Source: Sulfurovum sp. (GTDB lineage Bacteria > Campylobacterota > Campylobacteria > Campylobacterales > Sulfurovaceae). Taken from it: DNA of 6,999 nucleotides. Positions 1,709 through 6,999 of the stretch are shown one piece after another (within the stretch, counting starts at the first letter, position 1; each line of letters opens with the position of its first letter). Made by a program: the position numbers and the translations under genes. The stretch is taken from positions 1 through 6,999 of the forward strand of contig JALVGO010000277.1 of NCBI GenBank assembly GCA_027029065.1. Reading direction: 5' to 3'. The notes below the pieces were generated by a model, which saw only the letters and a list, made by a program, of their open reading frames with translations, was not told the origin of the DNA and made no database searches.

Positions 1709-1770
1709 CTCTACAGCTTATTACAGCTTTTATATTAAAAGACTTGTGTCCTGCGGACGGCTTTTTACTC

Positions 1771-1798
1771 CAAAAAGAAAGGGCAGATTTTTACCTGC
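1771..1798 (-). terminator. Terminator overlapping the end of mob copy 1
   Basis: On the minus strand GCAGGT-AAAA-ATCTGC forms a 6-bp stem with one G-T pair (1783-1798). It contains the relaxase TAA stop and is followed by CCTTTCTTTTT. This is a plausible intrinsic terminator. Copy 2 has the same stem with CCTCTCTTTTT. Confidence 0.5.
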
Positions 1799-3179
1799 TC
1801 ATACCACCTCTTGACCTCGATTTGTCTTTGGTCTTGGATTGGGCTTTGAACTCTTTAACGGATCGATCCCTTTCTGGTTGCTGCAACTTCCTGAAAAAGT
1901 CTTTGACCTTATCGACTGCCTTACCCAGAGAGTTAAATACCGATTTGGCATCTTTGATAAATCCTCTAACCGATTGCTCCCTCTCTCTTAGTCTCGTATA
2001 AAGGCTATTGGCTTGGGTTATTGTGATTTTGAAGCCTACAACCTCTTTTTTCAAGACCCCTTTGGTTATCGGCTCCGCCTCATTGTCAAGGAACTCTTTA
2101 AGCAGCAGCTCCGATCCGTAATCGCTTAGTAACCTCTCAGCTCTCCACTTTAGCTGCTCCTCACCCGGAAAGGATATGCCGTTATTCAGCTCTGTAACCG
2201 TCCGTAAATCGATTTTAGAGCCGTTAGCCATACTCTGACCCTCTTTAGGGCTTATTTTGGCTTCTAAGGCTTTATTTTGCTCAATTAGGGAGTCAATCCT
2301 CTCTTCCTGGTCAAGTATGATCTCTCGATACTGCTCCAGCTTCTCATCTTTGGCGTTGTCTCTTCTAAGATCCTTTCGGAGATCTTCGATCTGCTCTTTG
2401 AGATCCTCGATCGTGAGATCCTTGGCTTTGATCTTCTCTTTGAGCTGCTTATTCTCGGCTTCCAGCCGTGCATAATCTTCCCGATTAGCTCCATTCGCCT
2501 TTAACTCTTGCCGGAGATCGGCTATCTCCTGCTTGAGATCCTTGACCTTTGCCAATTCTTGGCGTTTAGCCTCTTTGTAGGCTTTGTGATCCAGCCTTAC
2601 GGCTTTGCTTCCTCGCTTCCCCCGCTCCATTCCCAATACCTCGGCTGTGAGGTCTTGGAGCTTGGATAGGCGTTCTCGGTTCATTGCCTTTAGTTCGGGG
2701 TTCTCTCTCTTTTGGCGTTCGGTCAATCCTTTGCGGTAGAGCTGCTGCCCTGTCTGCCGGTCCAGTGTAAAAAAAGTAATGTGGGCGTGGAGGTTGTATT
2801 GAGGCACTCCCCGCTCGTTGATATGTCCTTCATCTCGATGTATGGCGATCTGTACACCGGTAAATCCTGTCTCTTTCTCAATCGCCCTGGTGAGTCGCTG
2901 CACATCTTCCAAAGTGTGCTCTTTGTTCAGATTGACAACGGCTTCCCACACATAGCTTTTAGCCTTGAGTGGCTGACCGAATTTCTGCCGGTAGTTCTCT
3001 CTCGCTTCGGTGTAAAGATCGGAGATCATTTTGGAGGCTTCACCGGCAGAGCGATCCACTTCATTTTGGAGTCTGTATTCTGCCGGCAGAAGATAATCGG
3101 GTTCCCGATCTTCTGACCGGTCATTGTGAGCCAAGCCACCTTTGGCAGCCTTGGCGAAATTGATCGATGCTTTAGCCAT
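1791..3179 (-). CDS. mob: MobV-like relaxase (Mob_Pre family), copy 1
   Basis: This protein nicks oriT and pilots the plasmid strand in conjugative mobilization. It would need a mating-pair apparatus from another element, since none is encoded here. It has 462 residues from the ATG at 3177-3179, which has AAAGGAGA just upstream. An in-frame extension to 3296 would read through the oriT repeat and is rejected. Motif I is HNDR (18-21). The metal-binding motif is HRDEG (114-118) followed by NLHAHI (129-134), a stretched form of the MobV H-x-DE-...-H-x-H signature. Residues about 200-310 are rich in heptad-like K/E/L and predict a coiled coil. The tail (about 430-462) is very basic. A strong internal start sits at residue 317. 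Copy 2 differs at six residues, all from 297 onward (S297A, T327M, T329A, N366Q, I387M, V422A). Confidence 0.9.
   Translation of the reverse strand: MAKASINFAKAAKGGLAHNDRSEDREPDYLLPAEYRLQNEVDRSAGEASKMISDLYTEARENYRQKFGQPLKAKSYVWEAVVNLNKEHTLEDVQRLTRAIEKETGFTGVQIAIHRDEGHINERGVPQYNLHAHITFFTLDRQTGQQLYRKGLTERQKRENPELKAMNRERLSKLQDLTAEVLGMERGKRGSKAVRLDHKAYKEAKRQELAKVKDLKQEIADLRQELKANGANREDYARLEAENKQLKEKIKAKDLTIEDLKEQIEDLRKDLRRDNAKDEKLEQYREIILDQEERIDSLIEQNKALEAKISPKEGQSMANGSKIDLRTVTELNNGISFPGEEQLKWRAERLLSDYGSELLLKEFLDNEAEPITKGVLKKEVVGFKITITQANSLYTRLREREQSVRGFIKDAKSVFNSLGKAVDKVKDFFRKLQQPERDRSVKEFKAQSKTKDKSRSRGGMSR
2229..2246 (-). promoter_or_regulatory. Internal Shine-Dalgarno and ATG inside mob
   Basis: Within the relaxase frame, AAAGAGGG (2239-2246) stands 7 nt before ATG (2229-2231, Met317). 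Translation from here would give the C-terminal 146 residues, starting MANGSKIDLR, as a separate protein. The same site is intact in copy 2 (5583-5600), although flanking codons have changed. It could be chance, an internal translation start, or a trace of an ancient fusion. Confidence 0.35.
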
Positions 3180-3198
3180 CGTCTCTCCTTTGTGCAGC

Positions 3199-3300
3199 AC
3201 CCTTGCGGTCAAACAAAGCGCAGTATCAATACCTTTAGGTTTGATAATGCGCACTATCAAACCTAAAAGGTTCTTGTGCGAAAAATTATACCGCAAGGGT
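3199..3300 (-). other. oriT: Probable oriT: nested inverted repeats upstream of mob (copy 1)
   Basis: The outer arms ACCCTTGCGGT (3199-3209) and ACCGCAAGGGT (3290-3300) are perfect complements. Inside, 3231-3246 pairs with 3255-3271 with one bulged base. Read on the minus strand, the inner hairpin is AGGTTTGATA, loop GTGCGCAT, TATCAAACCT. This has the plan I recall for the pMV158 MobV origin, a hairpin with loop GTGTG/T preceded by TA. By analogy nicking would fall in the loop after GTGCG (between 3250 and 3249, minus strand). That position is inferred. Confidence 0.72.
3285..3290 (-). promoter_or_regulatory. Probable -10 box of mob, copy 1
   Basis: A perfect TATAAT lies on the minus strand about 106 bp before the mob ATG and touches the outer oriT arm. 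No good TTGACA is seen 17 bp upstream, which is tolerable in Campylobacterota-like promoters. The transcript would carry the oriT hairpin in its leader. Relaxase binding at oriT could therefore repress mob, as is known for pMV158 MobM. Confidence 0.55.
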
Positions 3301-3565
3301 ATTAATTTTTGATGAGCTGCACTGACGGCAGCAGATACACAGCCGCAGCTGTGTGGTTACTCCAAAAGAAAATTTTTGAGATGAAAATAGGCTTTATAGA
3401 TTACTACTGAATAGCAAAAATATAAATAGAAATGAGAAACTGAACAGAAATAAAATCTCACACCTATAACAGTGCTGACGACTTGAATTTTCGGTTCAGT
3501 CTCTGCGGAGTTATCAACCGCATTAAATAACTACGATAAATAATAAAAAAAGTGAGGTAATACCT
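3301..3565 (+). other. Non-coding leader upstream of the 22-aa peptide (copy 1)
   Basis: I see no credible gene in these 265 bases. They hold two hairpins. A 7-bp stem ACACAGC-CGCA-GCTGTGT lies at 3337-3354. A longer stem pairs GAG plus ACTGAAC (3434-3445) with GTTCAGT plus CTC (3494-3503), with two bulged A. A TATAAA at 3421-3426 is one possible plus-strand -10 box. The mobile unit preserves the whole stretch without change in copy 2 (6655-6919), so it may be a structured 5' leader or encode an RNA regulator. Confidence 0.4.
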
Positions 3566-3586
3566 ATGAAAAAATTAATTAATGCG
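3519..3586 (+). promoter_or_regulatory. RNA structure burying the peptide's ribosome binding site
   Basis: CGCATTAA (3519-3526) is exactly complementary to TTAATGCG (3579-3586), which lies inside codons 5-7 of the peptide gene. The pairing would enclose the whole initiation region. Within it, AGGT (3555-3558) and ACCT (3562-3565) form a small hairpin that covers most of the GAGG Shine-Dalgarno, directly before the ATG. Such double sequestration is typical of type I toxin mRNAs kept silent until processed. Here it is inferred from complementarity only. Confidence 0.45.
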
Positions 3587-3634
3587 ATTATCCTGTATCT
3601 GATTAAGAAAATCATTGACTGGTTATTTAGTTGA
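3566..3634 (+). CDS. 22-aa amphipathic peptide, possible type I toxin (copy 1)
   Basis: An ATG with GAGG 9 nt upstream starts a 22-residue peptide beginning MKKLINAIIL and ending KKIIDWLFS, with stop TGA. On a helical wheel K3, Y11, K14, K15, D18 and S22 gather on one side, while I5, I9, L12, I13, I16, W19 and L20 face the other. This is a short cationic amphipathic membrane helix. Peptides of this type include TisB-like and AapA-like type I toxins and PSM-like peptides. I see no sequence family match and no proven antisense RNA. It is transcribed away from mob, lies in the part of the repeat with no substitutions, and has its start site in RNA structure. A plasmid-stability toxin is the leading idea; a chance frame remains possible. 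Confidence 0.6.
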   Translation: MKKLINAIILYLIKKIIDWLFS

Positions 3635-3639
3635 GTTTC

Positions 3640-3655
3640 GGACACTTATGTGTCC
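3640..3655. terminator. Hairpin between convergent small genes (unit B)
   Basis: GGACAC (3640-3645), loop TTAT and GTGTCC (3650-3655) form a perfect 6-bp stem. It sits 5 bases after the peptide stop and 24 bases before the stop of the convergent 38-aa gene. There is no clear T run, so its role as terminator is uncertain. The edge of the long repeat falls exactly at the end of the left arm. Confidence 0.4.
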
Positions 3656-3679
3656 ATCGGTTTATGTCATAATAAACGG

Positions 3680-3796
3680 CTATCTCTTTTCGGAGATCTT
3701 GCCGTAAATGTAGAGTATCGGAGAGGCAGCGATCAGGAGGACGGCAGCCCACAAAGAGATACCGGATCCCCTCAAGCTCTTGTAATAGCTAAACAT
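3680..3796 (-). CDS. 38-aa single-helix membrane protein (unit B)
   Basis: This is the counterpart of 143-262. The ATG (3794-3796) overlaps the end of the 59-aa gene by 8 nt (ATGTTTAG), the same overlap length as in unit A. The protein begins MFSYYKSLRGSGIS, has a hydrophobic segment at about 13-31 (LWAAVLLIAASPILYIY) and ends in a charged tail, KISEKR. It shares YK, R9, SGIS, SP at 25-26, Y29 and KI with the unit A protein. The nucleotide sequences are very different, so the similarity indicates selection on protein. No function is recognised. Confidence 0.72.
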   Translation of the reverse strand: MFSYYKSLRGSGISLWAAVLLIAASPILYIYGKISEKR

Positions 3797-3968
3797 CTTT
3801 TAACTCCTTGAGGATCTGCTCGAACTCCTCCAGGGACGGATCGCCCTGGAGAGTATCAATCCATTTTTGGATCTGCTGCCGCTTCTCTTCGCTGCCGGCT
3901 TTGCTTTTGGCGTTGTATAAGTCCATTAGGACGGGTTCCAGCATATGGAACATTGTTGCTTCGGTCAT
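3789..3968 (-). CDS. 59-aa acidic helical protein, second gene of rep operon B
   Basis: The start is the ATG at 3966-3968 with AAAGGAG 9 nt upstream; that Shine-Dalgarno overlaps the Rep B stop codon. A longer frame to 4007 would begin inside rep and has no ribosome site. Residues 6-19 (MFHMLEPVLMDLYN) match residues 75-88 of the 119-aa protein of unit A almost exactly, and IQ-x-WIDTL and EEFEQILKEL follow. This protein lacks the 74-residue N-terminal part and has a few extra charged residues (about 21-32) between the two helices. It is probably a small soluble two-helix protein. The role is unknown; genetic coupling to rep hints at a replication-accessory function. Confidence 0.82.
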   Translation of the reverse strand: MTEATMFHMLEPVLMDLYNAKSKAGSEEKRQQIQKWIDTLQGDPSLEEFEQILKELKDV

Positions 3969-3981
3969 TTGCTTAACTCCT

Positions 3982-4758
3982 TTAAAATAGTCTCGGTGCA
4001 TTTTCAATTACATCAATCGTAATGGATACGGCTTTTGGTCTGCCGGCATCAAAGTAATCGTAGTTTGTTTCATAGATAAAACTTAGTTTACTGTGTGCGT
4101 CCAATTCTTCTTTGACCGGCTTTAGTATTTTTCTTTCAATATCCGCAAAGCGTTTATAATGCGTTCCAAATAGTGCATTAAGCTCGTGTAGCTCGAATGT
4201 CTTACGCTTTGCAACATTCTCGCTATATTGACTGATGCGATAAAGAACTGGTAGCAGTCTCAAGGTATGTTTGGATTTAAACTTCATCAAGGATTTTGTA
4301 TCGATCATCGAATAGTTTCGCTTAACATCAATGATCTGACGGGCAATCTTTACAAAGATCTTTATCTCAATGGTATGCTTACCATAGACGAATTGATAAT
4401 AAGGGAGCAAACTTATGCCTGTCTCGGTATTATTTTCTTCATCGATAAATGTAATACTTGTTTGTTGCATTGCCTTAACATTTCTCTTGATCTCCGGGAG
4501 GCTCATACCTGTATATTTGAGCATATCCCGTGTATCCATCTTAATCGTTAAAAGCTTATCGCTATCCATCGTATCAAGATCTTTAACTGTTTCTATGGCA
4601 CTGGCAAGATAATAGATCGTCTTTAAAGCACCGGCAGTATTCTTTTGAATAGCACTCTCAATAAATGTATTACTGATCTTTCGATGGACTTTAGTCTTTT
4701 TTGACGCTTCAAGTTTTTCCTTTTTTAGCTTTGCTAAATTTTCCGGGCTTGGGATCAT
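3982..4758 (-). CDS. Rep_3-family plasmid replication initiator (unit B)
   Basis: This initiator has 258 residues from the ATG at 4756-4758, with AAAGG 6 nt upstream. It follows the Rep_3 plan: a lysine-rich start, a first winged-helix region at about 30-140, then YSMIDTKSLMKFKSKHTLRL (149-168) with YRISQYSE. After FELHELNALFG come YKRFADIERKILKPVKEEL (201-219) and a final strand region, AVSITIDV. It ends soon after the second wing and lacks the 80-residue tail of Rep A. Identity with Rep A by eye is low, so the two replicons are distinct and may be compatible. A 60-base sample (4081-4140) has 21 G/C against 33 in Rep A, which suggests a different source. Repeats at 4766-4820 and the iteron field at 4836-5025 lie directly upstream. 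Confidence 0.88.
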   Translation of the reverse strand: MIPSPENLAKLKKEKLEASKKTKVHRKISNTFIESAIQKNTAGALKTIYYLASAIETVKDLDTMDSDKLLTIKMDTRDMLKYTGMSLPEIKRNVKAMQQTSITFIDEENNTETGISLLPYYQFVYGKHTIEIKIFVKIARQIIDVKRNYSMIDTKSLMKFKSKHTLRLLPVLYRISQYSENVAKRKTFELHELNALFGTHYKRFADIERKILKPVKEELDAHSKLSFIYETNYDYFDAGRPKAVSITIDVIENAPRLF

Positions 4759-4765
4759 TTTAAAC

Positions 4766-4820
4766 CTTTAGGGAGTATTTTTTTACTTTAGGGAGTATGG
4801 TTAGGACTTACTCCCTAAAG
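4766..4820 (-). promoter_or_regulatory. Probable Rep B operator: repeated CTTTAGGGAGTA
   Basis: CTTTAGGGAGTAT occurs at 4766-4778 and 4786-4798 (20 bp apart). The reverse complement TACTCCCTAAAG at 4809-4820 makes a perfect 12-bp inverted repeat with the second copy. The group begins 7 bp ahead of the Rep B start. The core TTTAGGGA resembles the iteron core TTTAGTGA, as expected when Rep dimers repress their own gene at half-iteron sites. No clear -10 box is seen. Confidence 0.6.
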
Positions 4821-4835
4821 TGACAATATTTTTAT

Positions 4836-5025
4836 TTTAGTGACCTTATGAAATTATAGTCACTTAATACTTTAGTGACCCTTATTGTAAATAGGTAACA
4901 AAATATTTTAGGGACAAAAAAAATCATTTAGTGACAATATCAATAATTAGGACACTAATACTCGTATTTGGTCACTAAATTCGTAATATTTGGTCACTAA
5001 ATTCGTAATATTTGGTCACTAAAGT
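4836..5025. repeat. Origin iterons of unit B, both orientations
   Basis: The core GTCACTAAA occurs at 4971-4979, 4993-5001 and 5015-5023 in a 22-bp tandem array; units begin ATTTGGTCACTAAA and end TTCGTAAT. The reverse core TTTAGTGAC occurs at 4836-4844, 4871-4879 and 4927-4935 with irregular spacing. Degenerate copies lie near 4858 and 4951. This fills the gene-free stretch 4759-5144, which is very AT-rich. It is the likely Rep B replication origin and differs in sequence from the unit A iterons. Confidence 0.85.
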
Positions 5026-5046
5026 ATTTCTTAAAGTTCCCATTTT

Positions 5047-5118: not shown

Positions 5119-5124
5119 AAACTC

Positions 5125-5152
5125 CAAAAAGAGAGGGCAGATTTTTACCTGC
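5125..5152 (-). terminator. Terminator overlapping the end of mob copy 2
   Basis: This has the same stem as in copy 1: minus-strand GCAGGT-AAAA-ATCTGC at 5137-5152, which includes the TAA stop and is followed by CCTCTCTTTTT. One base in the tail differs from copy 1, leaving the stem unchanged. Confidence 0.5.
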
Positions 5153-6533
5153 TCATACCACCTCTTGACCTCGATTTGTCTTTAGTCTTGGATTGGGCTT
5201 TGAACTCTTTAACGGATCGATCCCTTTCTGGTTGCTGCAACTTCCTGAAAAAGTCTTTGACCTTATCCGCTGCCTTACCCAGAGAGTTAAATACCGATTT
5301 GGCATCTTTGATAAATCCTCTAACCGATTGCTCCCTCTCTCTTAGTCGTGTATAAAGGCTATTGGCTTGGGTCATTGTGATCTTGAAGCCTACAACCTCT
5401 TTTTTCAAGACCCCTTTGGTTATCGGCTCCGCCTCTTGGTCAAGGAACTCTTTAAGCAGCAGCTCCGATCCGTAATCGCTTAACAGCCTCTCGGCTCTCC
5501 ACTTTAGCTGCTCCTCACCCGGAAAGGATATGCCGTTATTCAGCTCTGCAACCATCCGTAAATCGATTTTAGAGCCGTTAGCCATACTCTGACCCTCTTT
5601 AGGGCTTATTTTGGCTTCTAAGGCTTTATTTTGCTCAATTAGGGCATCGATCCTCTCTTCTTGGTCAAGTATGATCTCTCGATACTGCTCCAGCTTCTCA
5701 TCTTTGGCGTTGTCTCTCCTAAGATCCTTTCGGAGATCCTCGATCTGCTCTTTGAGATCCTCGATCGTGAGATCCTTGGCTTTGATCTTCTCTTTGAGCT
5801 GCTTATTCTCGGCTTCCAGCCGTGCATAATCTTCCCGATTAGCTCCATTCGCCTTTAACTCTTGCCGGAGATCGGCTATCTCCTGCTTGAGATCCTTGAC
5901 CTTTGCCAATTCTTGGCGTTTAGCCTCTTTGTAGGCTTTGTGATCCAGCCTTACGGCTTTGCTTCCTCGCTTCCCCCGCTCCATTCCCAATACCTCGGCT
6001 GTGAGGTCTTGGAGCTTGGATAGGCGTTCTCGGTTCATTGCCTTTAGTTCGGGGTTCTCTCTCTTTTGGCGTTCGGTCAATCCTTTGCGGTAGAGCTGCT
6101 GCCCTGTCTGCCGGTCCAGTGTAAAAAAAGTAATGTGGGCGTGGAGGTTGTATTGAGGCACTCCCCGCTCGTTGATATGTCCTTCATCTCGATGTATGGC
6201 GATCTGTACACCGGTAAATCCTGTCTCTTTCTCAATCGCCCTGGTGAGTCGCTGCACATCTTCCAAAGTGTGCTCTTTGTTCAGATTGACAACGGCTTCC
6301 CACACATAGCTTTTAGCCTTGAGTGGCTGACCGAATTTCTGCCGGTAGTTCTCTCTCGCTTCGGTGTAAAGATCGGAGATCATTTTGGAGGCTTCACCGG
6401 CAGAGCGATCCACTTCATTTTGGAGTCTGTATTCTGCCGGCAGAAGATAATCGGGTTCCCGATCTTCTGACCGGTCATTGTGAGCCAAGCCACCTTTGGC
6501 AGCCTTGGCGAAATTGATCGATGCTTTAGCCAT
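5145..6533 (-). CDS. mob: MobV-like relaxase (Mob_Pre family), copy 2
   Basis: This is a second intact 462-residue relaxase, from the ATG at 6531-6533 with AAAGGAGA upstream. The catalytic half is identical to copy 1: HNDR at 18-21, HRDEG at 114-118 and NLHAHI at 129-134. The coiled-coil region is also unchanged up to residue 296. Six substitutions fall in the C-terminal third (A297, M327, A329, Q366, M387, A422), mostly conservative, and no frame is broken. Both copies therefore look functional and should act on the identical oriT of either unit. The internal Shine-Dalgarno and Met317 are kept (5583-5600). Having two complete relaxases on one small plasmid is redundant, which supports recent fusion of two plasmids or a false assembly join. 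Confidence 0.9.
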   Translation of the reverse strand: MAKASINFAKAAKGGLAHNDRSEDREPDYLLPAEYRLQNEVDRSAGEASKMISDLYTEARENYRQKFGQPLKAKSYVWEAVVNLNKEHTLEDVQRLTRAIEKETGFTGVQIAIHRDEGHINERGVPQYNLHAHITFFTLDRQTGQQLYRKGLTERQKRENPELKAMNRERLSKLQDLTAEVLGMERGKRGSKAVRLDHKAYKEAKRQELAKVKDLKQEIADLRQELKANGANREDYARLEAENKQLKEKIKAKDLTIEDLKEQIEDLRKDLRRDNAKDEKLEQYREIILDQEERIDALIEQNKALEAKISPKEGQSMANGSKIDLRMVAELNNGISFPGEEQLKWRAERLLSDYGSELLLKEFLDQEAEPITKGVLKKEVVGFKITMTQANSLYTRLREREQSVRGFIKDAKSVFNSLGKAADKVKDFFRKLQQPERDRSVKEFKAQSKTKDKSRSRGGMSR

Positions 6534-6552
6534 CGTCTCTCCTTTGTGCAGC

Positions 6553-6654
6553 ACCCTTGCGGTCAAACAAAGCGCAGTATCAATACCTTTAGGTTTGATA
6601 ATGCGCACTATCAAACCTAAAAGGTTCTTGTGCGAAAAATTATACCGCAAGGGT
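6553..6654 (-). other. oriT: Probable oriT, copy 2
   Basis: This is identical to 3199-3300. The outer 11-bp arms are at 6553-6563 and 6644-6654. The inner hairpin arms are at 6585-6600 and 6609-6625, with minus-strand loop GTGCGCAT. It lies in the same orientation as copy 1, so site-specific or homologous recombination between the two would separate the units. Confidence 0.72.
6639..6644 (-). promoter_or_regulatory. Probable -10 box of mob, copy 2
   Basis: TATAAT on the minus strand is in the same position relative to mob and oriT as the box at 3285-3290. Its context is identical, so both relaxase genes should be expressed and controlled alike. Confidence 0.55.
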
Positions 6655-6919
6655 ATTAATTTTTGATGAGCTGCACTGACGGCAGCAGATACACAGCCGC
6701 AGCTGTGTGGTTACTCCAAAAGAAAATTTTTGAGATGAAAATAGGCTTTATAGATTACTACTGAATAGCAAAAATATAAATAGAAATGAGAAACTGAACA
6801 GAAATAAAATCTCACACCTATAACAGTGCTGACGACTTGAATTTTCGGTTCAGTCTCTGCGGAGTTATCAACCGCATTAAATAACTACGATAAATAATAA
6901 AAAAAGTGAGGTAATACCT
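6655..6919 (+). other. Non-coding leader upstream of the 22-aa peptide (copy 2)
   Basis: This is identical to 3301-3565 and I see no gene in it. The 7-bp hairpin is at 6691-6708. The longer stem pairs 6788-6799 with 6848-6857. The base-paired element CGCATTAA starts at 6873. Confidence 0.4.
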
Positions 6920-6988
6920 ATGAAAAAATTAATTAATGCGATTATCCTGTATCTGATTAAGAAAATCATTGACTGGTTATTTAGTTGA
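6920..6988 (+). CDS. 22-aa amphipathic peptide, possible type I toxin (copy 2)
   Basis: This is identical in sequence to 3566-3634 and, on a circular molecule, the same gene as 48-116. Here the whole upstream leader is present. The Shine-Dalgarno hairpin is at 6909-6919, and CGCATTAA (6873-6880) is complementary to TTAATGCG (6933-6940). The stop TGA is at 6986-6988. The downstream hairpin is cut by the contig end and continues at 121-138. Confidence 0.6.
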   Translation: MKKLINAIILYLIKKIIDWLFS

Positions 6989-6999
6989 GTTTCGGACAC

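Follow-up and report, generated by a model that had tools for sequence, protein, structure and literature searches.

A 22-codon frame on a circular Sulfurovum plasmid contig as a candidate RNA-controlled, type I toxin-like peptide gene

The frame at positions 3566–3634 of the window, as we call the whole 6,999-nucleotide stretch of Sulfurovum sp. DNA analyzed here, is tentatively read as a real gene for a small membrane peptide that is controlled by RNA and works like a type I toxin, a reading to which we give not quite an even chance. It is somewhat likelier than any single rival, the main one being that the frame arose by chance. Computation gave the frame itself, its Shine-Dalgarno (SD) sequence, a predicted two-step folding of its mRNA, a strand-biased hairpin in the leader, and, in a related contig, L006, a different peptide frame that occupies the corresponding slot. 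The original prediction of a type I toxin candidate draws support from the frame, the folding, the L006 frame, and a conceivable antisense RNA, but no homologue of the peptide was found and several of the single features stand at chance level.

The 22-codon frame is present as had been claimed, running on the plus strand from ATG to TGA and encoding MKKLINAIILYLIKKIIDWLFS, with the SD sequence GAGG read from the sequence at 3554–3557 of the same strand. A short hydrophobic peptide frame with a ribosome-binding site, as looked for in type I toxin–antitoxin loci, is therefore in place, and frames so short slip past ordinary gene finding. The cationic amphipathic helix originally described is borne out by a net charge of +3 and a helical moment of 0.31 for the whole peptide (0.65 for residues 9–19), but it is not distinctive: the whole-peptide moment was equaled by 20% of 5000 residue shuffles, so that the amphipathic character is largely a matter of composition. 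Comparable frames (ATG, 16–36 codons, SD, and at least 60% hydrophobic residues) appeared in 3.1% of 4000 shuffles of 3180–3760 taken on both strands, and in 1.4% of 4000 shuffles of one strand of 600 nt. It is possible, although we find it doubtful, that a short frame has simply arisen by chance in this AT-rich intergenic stretch, and that the structure of its RNA or DNA is there for plasmid transfer, replication, or the control of the relaxase mRNA; that the single features lie near chance level and that the searches found no homologue of the peptide both favor this explanation. The cationic, hydrophobic composition is also common to many membrane peptides, which would suit a real membrane peptide with another role, be it directed at competitors in the way of a leaderless bacteriocin or concerned with mating or the cell envelope, and lacking an antisense antitoxin; we hold this to be rather improbable. 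An identical second frame is found at 48–116 on the plus strand (its copy at 6920–6988 belongs to the terminal overlap of the circular contig). It was discarded as evidence of conservation, since no difference separates the two copies along 1260 bp around the gene and the second is thus uninformative on selection.

The contig is circular, with identical first and last 127 bases, leaving 6872 unique bases, and a block of 1889 bases (1767–3655) is duplicated, the other copy consisting of 5121–6872 plus 1–137. The two blocks show 24 differences, 21 of them within the relaxase gene and none between 2386 and 3645. The 462-aa relaxase (mobilization protein) is encoded on the minus strand at 1791–3179, divergently from the peptide frame, with a second copy at 5145–6533, and matched no Pfam family above its cut-off in the profile scan. 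A Pfam-type family scan recognized Rep3-type replication initiators at 611–1540 and 3982–4758, both on the minus strand and each followed by a small ORF, and by eye iteron-like direct repeats that differ between the two modules lie upstream of each rep gene (1561–1680 and 4860–5040). A 59-aa ORF without assigned function (3789–3968, minus strand) is convergent with the peptide frame; its C-terminal part and that of a 119-aa ORF at 255–614 look alike by eye. Family scans, PHROGs included, gave neither ORF a family at a meaningful E-value, and the 119-aa ORF had no match in plasmid records and matches in 2 of 397 genomes, both weak. The 127-base overlap (1–127, 3519–3645, and 6873–6999) is also the exact end of the stretch 2386–3645 that is identical in both modules. 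Given that placement, the 6872-bp circle with its two rep and two relaxase genes might have arisen from two plasmids, each about 3.4–3.5 kb long, either as a cointegrate or through an assembly join between them.

Between the relaxase gene and the peptide frame lies an inverted repeat (3234–3267) that we interpret as oriT-like. Of the 35 distinct relaxase loci, 7 carry its 16-base core, with at most one substitution, within 500 nt of where the relaxase gene starts. Hairpins of this region dominate the sequence upstream of the peptide, with z scores from −4.1 to −5.8 for 80-nt segments within 3200–3299, and this again agrees with a chance frame placed in a stretch structured for other purposes.

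An argument for the frame comes from the predicted folding of its mRNA, whose long leader follows from an assumed transcription start. Partition-function folds were computed for growing transcripts with an assumed start at 3434, and the regions for several of the structural tests were picked once the fold was known. With that start, the predicted SD hairpin, AGGU-AAU-ACCU at 3555–3565 (3555–3558 with 3562–3565, plus strand), keeps 3.4–3.7 of its 4 pairs at all transcript ends tried between 3570 and 3662; if the RNA runs on to 3675, the hairpin is gone for two of four assumed starts. The SD had been described as lying in a local hairpin; the hairpin is indeed predicted, but not above chance, for local SD pairing was equaled by 28% of 300 shuffles with assumed transcript ends. 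Similarly, CGCATTAA at 3519–3526 is the exact reverse complement of TTAATGCG at 3579–3586, a leader–ORF match of 8 bp equaled by 13–17% of 1000 leader shuffles. The pairing, originally thought to close around the start region, stands as an exact match and as a predicted pairing of nascent RNA, but it was ruled out as an element of the final structure, where 0.3 of its 8 pairs are expected in the full-length RNA.

The leader arm at 3519–3533 (plus strand) is predicted to change partners, pairing first with 3579–3586 (nucleotides 14–21 of the ORF) in nascent RNA only and later with 3620–3631 at the ORF end, which closes a 5′–3′ long-distance interaction. With the start at 3434, the early pairing goes from 4.3 to 7.2 of 8 pairs as the RNA end reaches 3586–3600, and is down to 1.1 by an end at 3615, ousted by a predicted intra-ORF hairpin (3575–3606, plus strand); the late pairing holds 11.1 of 12 pairs at an end of 3631, 8.0 at 3658, and 6.5 at 3662. 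The order of folding is the same for four assumed starts (3434, 3463, 3505, and 3515) at ends from 3600 to 3662, and the late pairing spans 6.5–11.4 of 12 pairs across these starts at ends from 3635 to 3662. At an end of 3675 it is lost in the first copy for two of the four assumed starts; in the second copy, which diverges from the first beyond 3645, it amounts to 7.9–11.1 at ends equivalent to 3635–3662 and falls to 3.8 at 3675 and 0.1 at 3700. The late pairing therefore depends on termination near a hairpin at 3640–3655. At an RNA end of 3590 the start codon is 76–96% unpaired, so that the early pairing surrounds the start site but leaves it uncovered, and in RNA truncated at 3615 the AGG of the SD is still 89–97% paired, which leaves the opening step unaccounted for.

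Of 400 random synonymous recodings of the ORF, 2% did as well as the natural sequence on the early measure, 8% on the late measure, and 0.75% on the two together, and the rarity of this two-step folding argues against a chance frame. The late pairing was equaled by 0.5% of 200 shuffles of the whole mRNA, and the assumed mRNA (3434–3662) folds with a z score of −3.0, none of 300 shuffles being as low. Overall stability is ordinary among the synonymous recodings (50.5% as low), as is the energy of the leader–tail duplex among 2000 shuffles (32%). A short frame with alternative RNA folds would also suit a leader or attenuator peptide, one translated in order to regulate another plasmid function. 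We regard this as quite improbable, because no recognized gene follows downstream on the same strand, the 59-aa ORF and the rep gene being convergent, and because a terminator-like hairpin stands directly 3′ of the frame. That hairpin, GGACAC/GTGTCC at 3640–3655 on the plus strand, has a weak U tract and was not called by the terminator scan.

As for the 5′ end, a TATAAAT found by eye at 3421–3427 (plus strand) is the candidate −10 element of the peptide mRNA, with a start near 3434, and the promoter scan offered TAAAAT at 3451–3456 of the same strand as an alternative; promoter-like sites were not in excess (1 counted versus a shuffle mean of 1.6). On the minus strand, GATAAT at 3587–3592, inside the ORF, is a candidate antisense −10 element that matches TATAAT at 5 of 6 positions, a common motif without statistical support here. 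A possible 3′ end for such an RNA is given by the leader hairpin at 3435–3504 on the minus strand, which has an 11-bp outer stem and a U-rich tail (about 3434–3415). It folds at −25.9 kcal/mol (z −4.7) on the minus strand versus −18.3 kcal/mol (z −3.3) on the plus strand; the outer stem is unbroken over 11 bp on the former and carries one A·C mismatch on the latter, and 4% of 500 shuffles equaled this asymmetry. On these sequence features an antisense RNA of about 150–165 nt, covering the leader arm, the SD, and the start codon, is conceivable. The strand-biased hairpin could equally be of service to the relaxase mRNA, since the relaxase gene is read in the same direction, and this counts for the explanation by chance. 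A membrane peptide with another role, for its part, would be consistent with the unremarkable promoter-like sites on which an antisense RNA would depend; against it, a type I locus would need features such as the SD hairpin, the two-step folding, and the strand bias of the leader hairpin, and no recognizable export or immunity gene occurs among the ORFs scanned, in which the small neighbors are without assigned function.

Taking the frame as a type I toxin-like gene, we envisage a scheme that infers transcription and the two ends of the mRNA, as well as the antisense RNA, processing, toxicity, and plasmid maintenance. The cationic, hydrophobic, membrane-active peptide would help the plasmid to persist in its host, as type I toxins do. 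Its mRNA would be produced in a form poorly used by ribosomes, with the SD within a small hairpin, and the leader arm (3519–3533) would pair with codons 5–7 during transcription and shift to the ORF end once the RNA is complete; processing would then open the peptide mRNA. In plasmid-bearing cells, a short-lived antisense RNA, starting near 3580 on the minus strand and ending past the hairpin 3504–3435, would cover the leader, the SD, and the start codon. No partition gene was recognized among the plasmid ORFs scanned, and if the toxin is real it would suggest how small plasmids of this kind persist in these hosts. It would also extend to a plasmid the transient-to-locked mRNA folding described for chromosomal toxins of Helicobacter pylori.

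The likeness to AapA- and TisB-type systems that had been proposed holds as no more than an analogy of mechanism: the peptide matched no Pfam or NCBIfam model, in a comparison confined to those libraries, and the layout proposed for its transcript is unlike that of aapA3. There is no support for placing it in the AapA, TisB, or Ibs family. The absence of any Pfam or NCBIfam family for the window peptide extends to TisB, whose model presumably belongs to the libraries scanned. The antitoxin of that system, IstR-1, binds an upstream standby site. In Escherichia coli, TisB is likewise an amphiphilic helical peptide, of 29 aa, with an inhibitory structure in the 5′ UTR of its mRNA, but it is encoded by an SOS-controlled gene (PMC8309996). 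The Ibs peptides of the Ibs/Sib system of E. coli resemble the L006 peptide in hydrophobicity and length (19 against 18 aa; PMC8309996). The window peptide is more charged than Ibs and matches no Pfam model.

More can be said of aapA3/IsoA (PMC6733600). It also encodes a short peptide in Epsilonproteobacteria with an SD masked in small hairpins, and in H. pylori its transient early structures give way to a 5′–3′ long-distance interaction (PMC6733600); the same succession is found in our predictions, dependent on the RNA ends. The full-length aapA3 mRNA measures 225 nt (PMC6733600), against about 229 nt in the window if the RNA spans 3434–3662, and its antisense −10 element lies within the toxin frame, where bases 87 and 90 were mutated, the start codon having been mutated at 54 (PMC6733600); in the window such an element is a candidate only. 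However, aapA3 is chromosomal and encodes 30 aa, with a start codon near nucleotide 52 (PMC6733600), which implies a short leader and a longer 3′ part, whereas the transcript we propose has a long leader and a short 3′ part. The SD itself takes part in the transient hairpins of aapA3 (PMC6733600), while the early pairing in the window only encloses the start site. Finally, trimming of the 3′ end opens the aapA3 mRNA (PMC6733600), an opening that the window model does not reproduce, the AGG remaining paired at 3615. On small Campylobacterota plasmids, no type I toxin is announced in the portions of the literature covered by our search, although one could still be in print.

Further support, which we consider not decisive, comes from L006, a 5139-bp contig of a Campylobacteraceae metagenome-assembled genome whose relaxase is 49% identical to that of the window over residues 1–268 and which matches the window over 52 bp (88%) at the inverted repeat. 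There, an 18-aa ATG frame, MRILAIILLLMVLSSFCW (2151–2095, minus strand), lies downstream of an SD-like AAAGGAT, 403 nt from ATG to relaxase start as compared with 387 in the window. Its leader–ORF match, of 9 bp, begins at ORF nucleotide 14 as in the window, and 1% of 1000 leader shuffles equaled it. The assumed 5′ end of the L006 RNA is predicted to pair with the 3′ end, with 8.45 expected pairs (equaled in 1% of 200 shuffles), and the RNA folds with a z score of −3.9. Unlike in the window, the early pairing is kept in the full-length RNA, and among synonymous recodings 25% reached the early measure, 4% the late one, and 3% both. This similar arrangement at the same place speaks against a chance frame.

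The flanks, up to 600 nt, were surveyed at 35 distinct relaxase loci drawn from 47 (L001–L047; L070 stands outside the set). L006 is the closest of the 35 and alone has a comparable short hydrophobic frame in the slot, with a different peptide; that the other 34 had none in the flank examined favors chance. Frames that have an SD and whose residues are at least 80% hydrophobic were expected 0.037 times over the 35 loci and seen once, in L006, and at 60% hydrophobicity one was seen with 0.98 expected. A 27-aa frame at another locus (L005), about 779 nt from the relaxase start, was rejected as a further example because its start falls within the terminal part of an annotated gene; it gave one Pfam match, below its cut-off. 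That the L006 peptide is an Ibs was likewise set aside, as PF13956 had no match at E ≤ 10 in the L006 genome, with 22 candidates scored in a test that covered the genome and had the 18-aa peptide itself outside the scan. A further reading, which we hold to be unlikely, is that the mobilizable plasmids of Campylobacterota with relaxases of this family have a slot for toxins beside oriT, where unrelated short toxic peptides replace one another and the RNA logic is kept, namely a leader–ORF pairing from nucleotide 14, a 5′–3′ lock, and an antisense RNA that starts within the frame. The RNA switch would then be under more selection than the peptide, and annotation based on sequence would overlook every such system. 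A 20-bp inverted repeat was also noted by eye in the reverse complement of L006 (2790–2845), between the oriT-like repeat and the candidate peptide promoter.

Relatives of the relaxase were found in 182 of 72,556 plasmid records (Bacteroides 60, Campylobacter 35, Helicobacter 24), the ten best matches among these records being all from Campylobacterota, and in four genome sets (6/6, 65/397, 3/175, and 4/220), loci being retrieved for only part of the genome relatives; the six in the genome-contig set all bear campylobacterotan names. From these matches the host is probably a campylobacterotan. Close relaxases, at 81–96% identity, are known as proteins on metagenome contigs. Two phage matches to the relaxase were weak, and neither it nor the two replication initiators gave anything usable in IMG/VR. 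The original prediction had pointed to plasmids as the place to look for relatives of the peptide, and none, of the peptide or of the DNA of its region, was found in the 72,556 plasmid records. Among 397 Campylobacterota genomes, 18 matched the peptide at E ≤ 10, the best at 0.24, which yielded no homologue; no Pfam family reached E ≤ 10, NCBIfam gave no match, and the best PHROGs E-value was 6.9. The stretch between the oriT-like repeat and the leader had no match, the inverted repeat itself had one short match attributable to chance, and its 16-base core occurred in none of the 397 genomes and in five IMG/VR contigs, none with a credible relaxase match. A 40-aa frame on the opposite strand had no match in the protein database. 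Rfam gave one match below the gathering score in the window (4780–4918, away from the peptide locus) and ten in L006, all below gathering scores, and the L006 peptide region gave short, low-coverage matches in nine plasmid records. Two DNA patterns had no match in IMG/VR, and a looser one retrieved 113 stretches with frames of up to 60 codons in other layouts. Matches to IKKIIDW in IMG/VR were set aside. Several of these viral contigs (L071, L072, L074, L075, and L096, among others) share a recurring frame, M..EIKKIIDW.LYKQ.PAW.L....I.WIL, which seems to encode a very small, conserved membrane protein of viruses that has no relation to the window.
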